From NCBI RefSeq assembly GCF_037055355.1, contig NZ_CP146350.1, positions 5,603,001 through 5,667,000 of the forward strand: a DNA stretch of 64,000 nucleotides, written 5' to 3'. Made by a program: the position numbers and the translations under genes. This document shows positions 3,022 through 37,114 of this stretch, piece after piece. The DNA comes from Streptomyces sp. DG1A-41 (GTDB lineage Bacteria; Actinomycetota; Actinomycetes; Streptomycetales; Streptomycetaceae). Numbering within the stretch: the first letter of the stretch is position 1; each line of letters starts with the position of its first letter. The notes below the pieces were generated by a model. It did not search any database. It worked only from the letters and a program-made list of their open reading frames with translations, and had not been told where the DNA came from.

Positions 3022-3081
3022 CAGCCGCCGCCGGGGGCCGCTGCCTCGGGCGTGTCGGGCCCCTCTGAGACACTGGGCGCG

Positions 3082-4251
3082 ATGAGCGAGAGAACAGTCC
3101 CGCGGACCGCGCCCCTGCGCGCCCGCGCGGAGATCGACCTGGCCGCCCTGCGGGCCAATGTGCGGGCGCTGCGTGCCCACGCGCCGGGCGCGGCCCTGAT
3201 GGCCGTGGTGAAGTCAGAGGCGTACGGCCACGGGGCTGTGCCGTGTGCCCGCGCGGCCGTCGCCGCGGGGGCGGACTGGCTGGGCACGGCGACGCCCGAG
3301 GAGGCCCTCGCCCTGCGGGCCGCCGGGCTGCCGGGCCGCATCATGTGCTGGCTGTGGACGCCCGGCGGACCCTGGCGCGAGGCCATCGAGGCGGACCTCG
3401 ACGTGTCCGTCAGCGGGATGTGGGCCCTGGCCGAGGTCACCGAGGCGGCCCGGCTCGCCGGTCGGCCCGCGCGGGTGCAGCTCAAGGCCGACACCGGGCT
3501 CGGCCGGGGCGGCTGCCAGCCCGGGGACGACTGGGCCGGGCTGGTCCGGGAGGCGCTGCGCGCCGAGGCCGAGGGGCTCCTGCGGATCACGGGGCTGTGG
3601 TCGCACTTCGCCTGTGCCGACGAGCCCGGCCACCCTTCCATCGCCGCCCAGCTCGGCCGCTTCCGGGAGATGGTCGCGTACGCCGAGGAGCAGGGCGCCC
3701 GCCCCGAGGTCCGGCACATCGCCAACTCGCCGGCCACGCTCACGCTCCCCGAGAGCCATTTCGACCTGGTCCGGGCCGGCATCGCCACCTACGGCATCTC
3801 GCCCAGCCCCGAGCTCGGCACCCCGGCCGACTTCGGGCTGCGCCCGGTGATGACGCTGTCCGCCGCGCTCGCCCTGGTCAAGCACGTGCCGGGCGGGCAC
3901 GGCGTCAGCTACGGCCACCGGTATGTGACGCCCGGCGAGACCACCCTCGGCCTCGTCCCGCTGGGCTACGCCGACGGCATCCCGCGGCACGCCTCCTCGG
4001 CCGGGCCGGTCCTGATCGAGGGCAAGTGGCGCACGATCGCGGGGCGGGTCGCCATGGACCAGTTCGTGGTCGACCTGGGCGGTGACGAGCCCGCGCCGGG
4101 CGCCGAGGCGGTGCTCTTCGGGCCGGGGGACCGCGGCGAGCCCACCGCCGAGGACTGGGCCCAGGCGGCCGGAACCATCGCCTACGAGATCGTGACCCGG
4201 ATCGGAACGCGTGTTCCCCGCGTCTATGTGAATGAGGAACAGGACGGGTAA
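3082..4251 (+). CDS. alr: Alanine racemase
   Basis: A 389-residue PLP enzyme that interconverts L- and D-alanine for peptidoglycan synthesis. The PLP-binding Lys is K44 in VVKSEAYGHG, the family signature. The C-terminal beta domain contains GVSYGHRYVTPGETTLGLVPLGYADG, interrupted here only for length by its own continuation (DGIPRHASS), and includes the catalytic tyrosine region. The ATG at 3082 (MSERTVPRTA) is preferred over an upstream GTG at 3052 that would add ten unconserved residues. It is followed 134 bp later by an alpha/beta hydrolase on the same strand. Confidence 0.96.
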   Translation: MSERTVPRTAPLRARAEIDLAALRANVRALRAHAPGAALMAVVKSEAYGHGAVPCARAAVAAGADWLGTATPEEALALRAAGLPGRIMCWLWTPGGPWREAIEADLDVSVSGMWALAEVTEAARLAGRPARVQLKADTGLGRGGCQPGDDWAGLVREALRAEAEGLLRITGLWSHFACADEPGHPSIAAQLGRFREMVAYAEEQGARPEVRHIANSPATLTLPESHFDLVRAGIATYGISPSPELGTPADFGLRPVMTLSAALALVKHVPGGHGVSYGHRYVTPGETTLGLVPLGYADGIPRHASSAGPVLIEGKWRTIAGRVAMDQFVVDLGGDEPAPGAEAVLFGPGDRGEPTAEDWAQAAGTIAYEIVTRIGTRVPRVYVNEEQDG

Positions 4252-33956: not shown

Positions 33957-35081
33957 GTGACTGAGATCGAGATCGGGCGCGGCAAGCGCGGCCGCCGGGC
34001 GTACGCCTTCGACGACATCGCCGTCGTCCCCAGCCGCCGTACGCGGGACCCGAAGGAGGTCTCGATCGCCTGGCAGATCGACGCCTACCGCTTCGAGCTG
34101 CCGTTCCTGGCCGCTCCCATGGACTCGGTCGTCTCCCCGGCCACCGCCATCCGCATCGGCGAGCTCGGCGGCCTGGGCGTGCTGAACCTCGAAGGTCTGT
34201 GGACGCGGTACGAGGACCCGCAGCCGCTGCTCGACGAGATCGCCGAGCTGCCCGCCGACGCGGCGACCCGGCGCCTTCAGGAGATCTACGCCGCGCCCAT
34301 CAAGGAGGAGCTGATCGGCGCGCGGATCAAGGAGGTGCGCGACTCGGGCGTGGTCACGGCCGCCGCGCTCTCCCCGCAGCGCACGGCCCAGTTCTCCAAG
34401 GCCGTCGTCGACGCGGGCGTGGACCTCTTCGTCATCCGCGGTACGACGGTCTCGGCGGAGCACGTCTCCGGTTCGCACGAGCCGCTGAACCTGAAGCAGT
34501 TCATCTACGAGCTGGACGTCCCGGTGATCGTCGGCGGCTGCGCCACGTACACCGCGGCCCTGCACCTGATGCGCACGGGCGCGGCGGGCGTGCTGGTCGG
34601 CTTCGGCGGCGGCGCCGCGCACACCACGCGCAACGTGCTGGGCATCCAGGTCCCGATGGCCACCGCGGTCGCCGACGTGGCCGCGGCCCGCCGCGACTAC
34701 ATGGACGAGTCCGGCGGCCGGTACGTGCACGTGATCGCGGACGGCGGTGTCGGCTGGTCCGGTGACCTGCCCAAGGCGATCGCCTGCGGCGCCGACGCGG
34801 TCATGATGGGCTCCCCGCTCGCCCGCGCGACCGACGGCCCGGGCAAGGGCAACCACTGGGGCATGGAGGCCGTGAACGAGGAGCTGCCGCGCGGCCAGAA
34901 GGTCGACCTCGGCACGGTCGGCACCCTCGAGGAGATCCTCACCGGCCCGTCCCACACCCCCGACGGTTCGATGAACCTCTTCGGTGCGCTGCGGCGGGCG
35001 ATGGCCACGACCGGGTACAGCGAGCTGAAGGAGTTCCAGCGGGTCGAGGTGACGGTGGCGGACTCGCAGCACCGGCGGTAG
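33957..35081 (+). CDS. guaB3: GuaB3-family IMP dehydrogenase-like protein
   Basis: 374 residues, an IMPDH-fold TIM barrel without CBS domains, the standard neighbour of guaB in actinobacteria. It shows KRGRRAYAFDDIAVVPSRRT, AAPMDSVVSPATAIRIG and IADGGVGWSGDLPKAIACGA. At the position of the IMPDH active-site loop (GPGSICTTR in guaB) it has GFGGGAAHTTRNVLG, with no cysteine. IMP oxidation by the usual covalent mechanism is therefore not expected. The role is unsettled in the family; a regulatory or reductase function is possible. Confidence 0.9.
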   Translation: MTEIEIGRGKRGRRAYAFDDIAVVPSRRTRDPKEVSIAWQIDAYRFELPFLAAPMDSVVSPATAIRIGELGGLGVLNLEGLWTRYEDPQPLLDEIAELPADAATRRLQEIYAAPIKEELIGARIKEVRDSGVVTAAALSPQRTAQFSKAVVDAGVDLFVIRGTTVSAEHVSGSHEPLNLKQFIYELDVPVIVGGCATYTAALHLMRTGAAGVLVGFGGGAAHTTRNVLGIQVPMATAVADVAAARRDYMDESGGRYVHVIADGGVGWSGDLPKAIACGADAVMMGSPLARATDGPGKGNHWGMEAVNEELPRGQKVDLGTVGTLEEILTGPSHTPDGSMNLFGALRRAMATTGYSELKEFQRVEVTVADSQHRR

Positions 35082-35100
35082 TCGGTAGCCCCCAGGACGA

Positions 35101-35140
35101 GGAAGGGCCTGGTCACTCGGGTGAGTGACCGGGCCCTTTC
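35101..35140 (+). terminator. Terminator after guaB3
   Basis: GGAAGGGCCTGGTCACTC pairs with GAGTGACCGGGCCCTTTC around GGGT, with one G:T pair and one terminal mismatch. It lies 20 bp after the guaB3 stop. Confidence 0.85.
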
Positions 35141-35251
35141 GCGTGCGCAACTGGCCCTGACGGGGCGCGTGTTGCCGTATGAGGGCGCGTGGTTGCCTTC
35201 GGGCCGGATGGTGCGGTGGAGGGCGGTTCCGAGGCGCTGGTGTCCGTGATC

Positions 35252-35391
35252 GGCGCCCAGGCTCTTCTGGGCGCCCCCTTCCAAGGACACGGTTCCGGAC
35301 CCCGGCCCCTCGGGGCCCGGCCCGATTCCGACGTGCTGCCTACCGGGCCAATGGGTGGCGTCGTGGAAGGGGGCGCCCATGGGACGCCACC
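35252..35391 (+). promoter_or_regulatory. Structured leader with alternative hairpins around a start codon
   Basis: Three perfect pairings can be drawn. (A) GGCGCCCAG/CTGGGCGCC, 35252-35275. (B) GGGCGCCCCCTTCCA (35269-35283) with TGGAAGGGGGCGCCC (35364-35378), which contains the ribosome-binding site of the ORF starting at 35379. (C) GGTGGCGTC (35354-35362) with GACGCCACC (35383-35391), which encloses that site and the ATG. A and B share 35269-35275 and are mutually exclusive. The layout resembles a translational switch; no ligand or trans factor is known. Confidence 0.45.
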
Positions 35392-35474
35392 GCAAGCCCA
35401 CCCGCTGGGACCGACTCCGTCTTCGGATGGTGCAGTGCCGGAGGAGGTGGATCTTGCGACTTTTCGGATGGTGA
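35379..35474 (+). CDS. Candidate 31-residue highly basic peptide
   Basis: The ATG at 35379 follows GGAAGGGGG by 5 nt. The product begins MGRHRKPTRWDRLRLRMVQC and ends RRRWILRLFGW. It is rich in Arg and Trp, with a hydrophobic C-terminus, as in cationic amphipathic or nucleic-acid-binding peptides. It is bracketed by the structured leader and by a hairpin 4 nt after the stop. I do not recognise it. The evidence is the ribosome-binding site, the composition and the flanking structures. Confidence 0.4.
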   Translation: MGRHRKPTRWDRLRLRMVQCRRRWILRLFGW

Positions 35475-35478
35475 GCGG

Positions 35479-35503
35479 CCGCCCCCACGAAGACTGGGGG
35501 CGG
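35479..35503 (+). terminator. Hairpin after the short basic ORF
   Basis: CCGCCCCCA pairs with TGGGGGCGG around a seven-base loop, starting 4 nt after the TGA at 35472-35474. The rest of the gap to 35633 holds only further short GC hairpins. Confidence 0.55.
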
Positions 35504-35633
35504 ACACTCCGTGATCCATCCAGAAGCCTGCCGCAGTGGCCTCTGCGGTGGGCTCCGCCGTCTCCCAAGGTACTGGCGGCGGGGTGCCCCGCGCCACCAG
35601 CCCAGGGGGCTCAGCGCCCCCACGCGCCCCTCT

Positions 35634-36842
35634 TCACAACCGATGAGCCGCCCCCGTAGGCGCCGCCCCCCGCGTGTCCAGCAGCAGCTGTGCCTTCACC
35701 GACAGGCCTTGCAGGTCGTACGTGCGGTGCTGCTGGAGGAGGATGGTCAGGTCCGCGTCGGCGACCGCCTCGTAGAGGGAGTCCACGCGGGGGACGGGGC
35801 GGTCCAGGACGCTCCAGGCGGGGACGTGCGGGTCGTGGTAGCTGACCGAGGCGCCCAGTTCCATCAGGCGCAGGGCGATCTCCTGCGCGGGGGTGCCGTG
35901 CAGGTCGGCGAGGTCGGGCTTGTAGGTGACGCCCAGGAGCAGCACACGTGCGCCGCGGGCCGACTTGCCGTGCTCGTTGAGGAGCGTGGCGGCGCGCTGG
36001 ACGACGTAGCCGGGCATCCGGCTGTTGACCTGCTGGGCCAGTTCCACCATGCGCAGGGTGCGGCCGCCGTGGGCGGTCAGGTCCTGCGGGACGGCGTGGC
36101 CGCCGACGCCGGGGCCGGGGCGGAAGGCCTGGAAGCCGAACGGCTTGGTCTCCGCACAGCGGACGACGTCCCACAGGTCGACGCCCAGGTCGTGGCAGAG
36201 GACGGCCATCTCGTTGACGAGGGCGATGTTGACGTGCCGGTAGTTGGTCTCCAGGAGCTGCACGGTCTCCGCCTCGCGGGGTCCACGCGCGCGTACCACC
36301 TTGTCGGTGAGCCGTCCGTAGAAGGCGGCGGCCGACTCCGTGCAGGCCGGGGTGAGGCCGCCGATGACCTTGGGGGTGTTGGCGGGGGTGAAGTCGCGGT
36401 TGCCGGGGTCGACGCGGCTGGGGGAGTAGGCGAGGTGGAAGTCGCGTCCCGCGCGCAGACCCGATCCCTCTTCGAGGAGGGGGCGCAGGATTGCCTCTGT
36501 CGTCCCTGGGTACACAGGTGACTCCAGGATCACAGTGGTGTGCGGGCGCAGGTGGGCGGCCAGGGTGCGGGCGGCCGCCTCCAGCTGGCTCAGGTCCAGT
36601 CCGCCGTCCGCGCCCCGCGGGGTCGGTGCGCAGATGACCGCGGTGCGCACCCGGCCGAGTTCGGCGGCGTTCGTGGTCGGGCGGAAGCCCCCCGAGAGCA
36701 TCCGGCGCTGTTCGGCGGGGCTGAGCGAGCCGGCCTCGGGGCCGGTCCGGTAGCCGATGGTGGCGACGCCGGCGGCGACGGCGGCCTGAGCCAGGGGCAG
36801 GCCGTAAGGGCCGAGTCCGATGACGGCGAGATCTGCGGGCAT
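35634..36842 (-). CDS. Nucleotide-sugar dehydrogenase homologue lacking catalytic Cys and Lys
   Basis: 402 residues from the ATG at 36842 (MPADLAVIGLGPYGLPLAQA). The fold is that of UDP-glucose/UDP-ManNAc 6-dehydrogenases: Rossmann GLGPYG at 9-14, SPSRVDPGN at 140-148, LLLGVTYKPDLADL near 300. The catalytic cysteine of GGHC is Ala250 (GPGVGGHAVPQDL), and the catalytic lysine of the E-x2-K-L-x-E-N motif is Gln195 (AETVQLLETNYR). Two-step oxidation to a uronic acid should be impossible, so it may be a binding or regulatory protein. Isolated gene, convergent with the short ORF region. Confidence 0.85.
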   Translation of the reverse strand: MPADLAVIGLGPYGLPLAQAAVAAGVATIGYRTGPEAGSLSPAEQRRMLSGGFRPTTNAAELGRVRTAVICAPTPRGADGGLDLSQLEAAARTLAAHLRPHTTVILESPVYPGTTEAILRPLLEEGSGLRAGRDFHLAYSPSRVDPGNRDFTPANTPKVIGGLTPACTESAAAFYGRLTDKVVRARGPREAETVQLLETNYRHVNIALVNEMAVLCHDLGVDLWDVVRCAETKPFGFQAFRPGPGVGGHAVPQDLTAHGGRTLRMVELAQQVNSRMPGYVVQRAATLLNEHGKSARGARVLLLGVTYKPDLADLHGTPAQEIALRLMELGASVSYHDPHVPAWSVLDRPVPRVDSLYEAVADADLTILLQQHRTYDLQGLSVKAQLLLDTRGAAPTGAAHRL

Positions 36843-37114
36843 GGCGTGGCCGTCCTTCCCGATAGCCGAAGTGGGACAGGTGCGCAAGCCCTGTGGACAG
36901 GACGGGCGAGTGCAATGTCAGACTAGGAGTAAATATGACCGATATGCGGGATTTCTCGCCCGAGTTTCGGTGAGTCTTCCGTGGGCGTTGTCCACAGGCT
37001 GACGGCCCGTGGTGGCTGAAGTCGGGCAACACGGTCAGAATTTGGGCATGGGGGATACGGACGGGGTCTCACCCGACGGGTGCGGCCGGCGCGACCGATG
37101 AGCTGGAGGCAGCG

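Follow-up and report, generated by a model that had tools for sequence, protein, structure and literature searches.

A conserved micropeptide gene of Streptomyces with a predicted self-locking mRNA leader, and its relatives at other chromosomal loci

The analysed window is a stretch of 64,000 nucleotides from Streptomyces sp. DG1A-41 (contig NZ_CP146350.1, positions 5,603,001 to 5,667,000, forward strand). Between guaB3 and the next gene, a convergent sugar-dehydrogenase gene, it contains a short open reading frame (ORF) that extends from ATG 35379 to TGA 35474. Its 31 codons, read directly from the sequence, encode the peptide MGRHRKPTRWDRLRLRMVQCRRRWILRLFGW, and a strong Shine-Dalgarno (SD) site, GGAAGGGGG at 35365-35373, precedes the start codon. 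The ORF, its SD site and its position between the two genes had all been given in a preliminary description of this DNA and were found as described; the gene arrangement is kept in many Streptomyces. The following features are referred to below:

35238-35243, forward strand: -10-like box, TGGTGT in the window and TAGTGT, TAGCGT and the like in relatives.
35252-35275, forward strand: P1, the 5' hairpin (arms 35252-35260/35267-35275), whose 3' arm overlaps the anti-SD.
35269-35283, forward strand: conserved anti-SD, the 5' arm of helix P2 and exact complement of 35364-35378.
35295-35324, forward strand: P4, a nearly invariant hairpin of the pattern CCGG[A/G]CCCC-loop-TCGGGGCCCGG plus a CCCG tail.
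35336-35358, forward strand: P5, a hairpin between P4 and the SD (arms 35336-35341/35353-35358).
35364-35378, forward strand: SD region, TGGAAGGGGGCGCCC, the 3' arm of P2; its 9-bp core is complete in 72 of 77 relatives.
35379-35474, forward strand: ORF of 31 codons for an Arg/Trp-rich basic peptide, supported by a coding-pattern test and in-frame insertions.
35440-35450, forward strand: internal SD-like sequence GGAGGAGGTGG (codons CGG AGG AGG TGG), largely kept at the nucleotide level.
35466-35521, forward strand: P6, in which the last two codons (35466-35471) pair with 35516-35521 around the stop codon and P7.
35479-35503, forward strand: P7, a hairpin that begins 4 nt past the stop codon (arms 35479-35487/35495-35503).
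35526-35553, forward strand: P8, a conserved terminator-like hairpin with a few double changes (arms 35526-35536/35543-35553).

A terminator-like inverted repeat past guaB3 (35105-35142) would separate guaB3 from the small gene. An extended ORF of 39 aa, starting at GTG 35355, was discarded, as its frame is broken in relatives by indels of 1-2 nt between the SD and the ATG, and a role as leader peptide of a downstream gene was ruled out because the next gene is convergent. The peptide, referred to below as type A, is hydrophilic and very basic, not hydrophobic, and had no match in Pfam or NCBIfam at the curated cut-off.

A DNA search with the locus gave matches in 14 of 61 genomes (its own included), some of them merely short pieces, and a six-frame peptide search (E <= 0.01) matched 92 of 392 genomes of the genus. 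In the set of 90 loci, some of which come from short stretches, guaB3 shares the strand of the ORF in 87 and the convergent dehydrogenase gene occupies the opposite strand in 81; peptide-search matches outside this set were two in G230, one in G298 and the second in G268. Alignments were made for 88 of the 90 loci (guaB3/dehydrogenase were not found at L109 and L110), and 77 of these entered alignments A1 and A2. The 11 exclusions were loci with no recognisable anti-SD (L041, L043, L070, L086, L089, L091, L092, L098 and L107), an incomplete locus (L090), and L103, which was set aside. A comparison across Streptomyces, suggested in the preliminary description, showed the ORF and the SD core kept in nearly all of the 77 alignable relatives, with compensatory changes in P6 and P7.

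The start codon is ATG in 75 of the 77 and the stop codon TGA in 74, the TGA being absent from three aligned copies. Insertions within the ORF are of 3, 21 and 33 nt, and indels directly 5' of the ATG are mostly of other lengths. In a coding-pattern test on 76 sequences (L093 omitted because of a gap) that ignored kinship, substitutions favoured similar amino acids (p = 0.0005 against random placement), synonymous changes were in modest excess (p = 0.0085), and avoidance of stop codons was not significant (p = 0.18). Judged from these patterns, the 31-codon ORF is evolving as a coding sequence. Broken type A copies also occur, with an in-frame stop (L105), an ATA start (L099), a one-base gap (L093) or a frameshift (L103).

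The longest perfect inverted repeat in 35201-35503 measures 16 bp, compared with at most 13 bp in 200 dinucleotide shuffles. A perfect match of 15 bp between an upstream strand and the SD site, proposed earlier, was recovered exactly, 35269-35283 being the reverse complement of 35364-35378; the local 9-bp hairpin assigned to the same upstream strand is likewise present (P1). In relatives the 9-bp core of the SD helix is fully paired in 72 of 77 and all 15 pairs are formed in 34 of 77, while P1 keeps at least 8 of its 9 pairs in 54 of 77. P5 is paired in 98.4% of cells among 32 sequences, with mostly one-sided G-U changes. A third stem (35354-35362/35383-35391), said to enclose the SD site and the ATG, does form 9 bp in the window but is complete in just 2 of the 77 relatives, two of its positions being often mismatched, and was rejected as a functional element. 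The hairpins had been called mutually exclusive, which proved accurate in part: P1 is incompatible with the outer pairs of the SD helix, but the helix core can coexist with P1, as in the predicted fold of an RNA ending at 35370.

Folding of the leader with and without its 5' strand, another comparison put forward in the preliminary description, gave a probability of 0.00 that the SD is unpaired in the full transcript, 0.39 for a modelled RNA beginning at 35276, and 0.60 for one beginning at 35284, from which all bases up to 35283 have been removed. Because this probability rises once the anti-SD is removed, the anti-SD is predicted to act as the lock, which its removal could plausibly open. 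In predicted folds of the growing RNA, P1 is formed first and stands without SD pairing for as long as the SD has not started to emerge; the SD core then pairs with the anti-SD beside P1, and the longer helix subsequently displaces P1. Within type A, compensatory change in the leader helices did not exceed that in shuffles (2 of 27 pairs; alignment A3, 32 of the 77 relatives); since the helices barely vary, covariation within this type is uninformative either way. With almost no compensatory change in type A, support for the leader helices comes from their invariance and from the comparison of types given below.

The end of the ORF is structured as well. The mean pairing score of P6 was 17.5, compared with a mean of 14.3 and a maximum of 15.1 in 1000 shuffles of the partners, in a test on 76 sequences with kinship left in (L062 omitted, having no P7 match). 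The last two codons vary (GGATGG, GGAAAG, GGGCGA, AGCTGG and others) and their partner usually changes along with them; in some copies P6 includes the stop codon. On this alignment evidence, pairing of the last codons with the 3' UTR is upheld by clear compensatory changes. One pair of P7 is G-C in 51 of 77 relatives and A-U in 26, and a predicted stem inside the ORF shows a double change in 16 of 77. The terminator-like hairpin reported 4 nt after the stop codon is there (P7) but has no T-run; P8 is the better terminator candidate, being followed by T-rich sequence in many relatives, poorly so in the window.

A cluster of TANNNT sequences was found about 140 nt upstream of the ATG in 59 of 76 relatives. 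The box is absent from 17 of the 76 loci retaining the anti-SD, the window locus included; as its usual A has been lost (TGGTGT instead of TAGTGT), the window copy may be weakly transcribed. The position of this putative promoter would place the 5' end of the RNA next to P1. None of the nine type A loci without recognisable anti-SD has TANNNT at the promoter position (in L089 such a box occurs further upstream), and seven of them keep an open ORF. The joint absence of anti-SD and promoter box may point to a harmful product, but a single deletion could remove both. On the reverse strand no convincing antisense promoter emerged, the best -10-like cluster occurring in 35 of 76 relatives. Past P8, at about 35566-35570 of the window, there is a GGTACC-like site with -10-like matches on both strands (26 of 76 and 35 of 76 relatives). 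Upstream of the promoter (about 35180-35216), a stretch resembling GGTTGCGTTYGGGGCGAAT in relatives seems to be conserved among type A loci and is a possible operator.

Loci of the same design were found elsewhere in Streptomyces chromosomes. With strict filters, at which weak matches are lost, leader covariance model R1 matched 54 of 394 genomes of the family (1 of 17 genera), and model R2 matched 9 of 41 genomes of the genus at E <= 0.5 and 26 of 119 genomes of the order at E <= 0.001 (1 of 5 genera). Four of the 54 genomes had a second R1 match at another locus; these and some lone weaker matches share the plan and differ in sequence, and others are decayed type A copies. Streptomyces sp. 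DG1A-41 itself has one copy. The exact P4 pattern occurred at 84 places in 71 of 392 genomes, as against 2 places for its reversal. Named GTDB genomes contain it in at least 120 stretches; among the 80 matches listed, 77 were titled Streptomyces, the others being 'Actinobacteria bacterium', Kitasatospora aureofaciens (L210), which has the helix and a type A peptide, and Thermocatellispora (L253), which under our own rules has no ORF and a helix of only 9 nt. The type A element had no match in plasmid or phage collections and the P4 pattern was absent from viral contigs, so a mobile origin of the window element was rejected.

The common plan comprises a 5' hairpin, an anti-SD, the nearly invariant hairpin, an SD that matches the anti-SD of the same copy, and a basic peptide of 27-40 aa (15 aligned representatives), mostly starting with MG[R/C]H and ending near an R-W motif. 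Anti-SD and SD sequences differ between types yet match within each copy. In total 138 distinct copies (loci from L111 on) had the exact P4 pattern with enough flank; 122 of them combine an SD helix of 8 nt or longer with a peptide fitting one of six types (A 89, B 17, C 7, E 5, D 3, F 1), and in the other 16 the ORF or helix failed the rules or the peptide fitted no type. The rules are our own, and types A and C include some shortened, frameshifted or wrong-frame copies (in the type C entries L240 and L241 a later ATG in the wrong frame was picked). An internal GGAGGTG or GAAGGTG is present no more than 150 nt from the SD in 118 of the 122 copies. In several copies the SD helix is retained with a shortened or frameshifted ORF (e.g., L115, L120, L190, L218 and L222). 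Searches with one peptide each of types B-F gave only DUF7439 in Pfam, with at most 17.4 bits (type C) against a cut-off of 27 bits; the type F peptide has one entry in the protein collection, a hypothetical protein on 14 contigs.

Surroundings were inspected at 13 paralog loci. By eye, decayed type A copies included some that kept the leader and lost the ORF (L147, also L205, and L159), some damaged in both (L150 and L152), and one, L153, that retains SD and ORF with the 5' hairpin and anti-SD gone. Types B (L198, L199) and F (L141) adjoin the same putative LacI-type gene and type C (L144, L272, L288) a putative L,D-transpeptidase-like gene, also judged by eye. Of three type B copies scanned, two have a tmRNA gene upstream (L198, 6414-7320; L199, 3551-4531; not L221), and the type E locus L225 also contains a tmRNA gene.

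Comparison of types provided the variation that type A lacks. In alignment A4 (14 loci, five of type A), which was aligned to a model already holding this structure, the four helices showed 46 double-change cells, compared with 14.0 +- 4.2 after shuffling (0 of 500 shuffles); changes on both sides with pairing kept were found at 6 of 9 P2 pairs and 4 of 5 modelled P1 pairs. The SD helices of individual copies were found in unaligned sequence. The longest anti-SD:SD helix averaged 11.6-13 nt within types A, B, C, D and F, compared with 5-11 nt between types; type E, a mixture of loci, is the exception (8.5 within the type, 8.6 with F, 8.4 with A). The per-copy test of P1 was weak, with 120 of 122 copies positive compared with 102.8 for shuffled upstream sequence. 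From these sequence comparisons, the anti-SD:SD helix is covarying across types, and the recurrence of one RNA and micropeptide design at other chromosomal places points to a family of tightly silenced small-peptide genes that has not been described.

On balance, the element is probably, by a modest measure, a stand-alone unit in which a 31-aa basic micropeptide is encoded by a self-locking mRNA, representing type A of a multi-locus Streptomyces family with a type I toxin-like plan. A self-contained regulated small-protein or RNA unit had been suggested before, and this is well supported by the conserved locus, coding signal, retained SD sequestration, cross-type covariation and frequent -10-like box. 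Transcription would start just upstream of P1, which would form first; the newly made SD core is predicted to pair with whatever part of the anti-SD P1 leaves free, and the SD helix then to extend, displacing the 5' arm of P1. The finished transcript should therefore be hard to translate. The most likely opening trigger would be loss of the 5' strand by cleavage, another option being a factor that binds P4 or competes for the anti-SD. The last codons and the stop codon would also be buried in the covarying 3' structure, and the peptide could act on membrane or nucleic acid and be harmful if freely made. More tentatively, and with rather less confidence than in the unit itself, the 5'-terminal hairpin and anti-SD may be a strand-displacement lock, P4 a docking site for a release factor and the ORF end a second locked part, in a chromosomal family of type I toxin-like genes.

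As to harmfulness, type F alone has a hydrophobic, membrane-like stretch (maximal 15-residue Kyte-Doolittle mean 2.27). The hydrophobic moment was reached by 6 of 500 shuffles for type B, 7 for D, 17 for E1, 48 for E2, 59 for C, 191 for F and 323 for A; segments of B, D and E1 are thus amphipathic beyond most shuffles, and type A no more so than its composition gives. The toxin reading is a lead, not a result, because one deletion could remove anti-SD and promoter together, the box is absent from 17 of 76 loci with the anti-SD, and the type A peptide is not amphipathic beyond its composition.

A regulated but harmless small protein is possible, if rather unlikely: the leader would be a sensor of ligand, protein or temperature built around P4 that opens the SD, and the peptide an ordinary regulator or a partner of membrane or ribosome. 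P4 is nearly invariant across types, more so than a mere spacer would seem to require; the type A peptide is hydrophilic and strongly basic; and its locus is a fixed chromosomal site with no trace in the plasmid, phage and viral collections. However, the element has no Rfam match, no downstream gene is available for control, and the retention of the SD helix beside shortened or frameshifted ORFs is as expected for a dispensable product.

We consider it improbable that the element is mainly a structured regulatory RNA, with an ORF that is incidental or a translation-coupled part of the folding. Structure does extend into the ORF, as the double changes of the internal stem show, the last two codons follow RNA pairing, and GGAGGTG or GAAGGTG is retained in nearly all copies; yet the coding-pattern test, the insertions in multiples of three, and a start codon and N-terminus kept across types of very different RNA sequence argue against this. 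GC-rich leaders fold readily, the P1 control is weak and leader covariation in type A inconclusive, so that unremarkable GC-rich intergenic sequence, its repeats and terminators conserved through close kinship alone, might be suggested. This we regard as very improbable, since it is contradicted by covariation over unlinked loci, by SD helices that differ in sequence by type, and by P6 and an inverted repeat exceeding shuffles.

Small-peptide genes are readily overlooked in annotation, and literature searches on the locus, on peptide strings and on Streptomyces type I toxins found no description; no type I-like locus of Streptomyces is described in the literature searched. A recurring RNA-peptide module with a covarying lock offers base pairs that can be tested directly, along with a nearly invariant hairpin as bait for the trigger, and, if the peptides are harmful, would give Streptomyces a built-in growth switch.

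In translational riboswitches and other SD-sequestering leaders, SD pairing alternates with an upstream hairpin, and the leader contains a nearly invariant element. The Streptomyces leader shares both properties but controls a stand-alone micropeptide with a convergent next gene. No Rfam model matched the element at gathering score, either in window 34000-37000 or at seven paralog loci, and a riboswitch or known sRNA was set aside on that ground. The Streptomyces sRNA scr4677 (Rfam RF02673; PMC3896431) is comparable in being an intergenic RNA of this genus; its model, however, does not match the element itself, and scr4677 is a separate RNA. At locus L146 a match to the type B leader (3027-3150) precedes a scr4677 match (3436-3686) on the same strand, the latter beginning 286 nt past the end of the former.

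Type I toxin-antitoxin loci are characterized by an ORF typically shorter than 60 aa, an SD occluded by an anti-SD, a hydrophobic or membrane-spanning peptide, an antisense RNA, and toxicity. The ORF of the present element is small (31 aa; 27-40 aa in 15 representatives), and sequence, conservation, cross-type covariation and folding predict that its SD is occluded by the anti-SD. In PMC6733600 a non-translatable primary transcript is named as a major hallmark of type I loci, and the predicted plan of the element matches it; the class itself is defined by antisense RNA and toxicity. The same text presents aapA/IsoA of Helicobacter pylori as a type I toxin mRNA family. As described there, it resembles the Streptomyces elements in being a small-peptide mRNA whose primary transcript hides the SD by long-range pairing with an anti-SD, in its transient early hairpins and in occupying several chromosomal loci. 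By the same account, the anti-SD of aapA/IsoA is at the 3' end, whereas that of the Streptomyces elements is at the 5' end, and the Streptomyces peptides, unlike those of aapA/IsoA, are very basic and mostly not hydrophobic.
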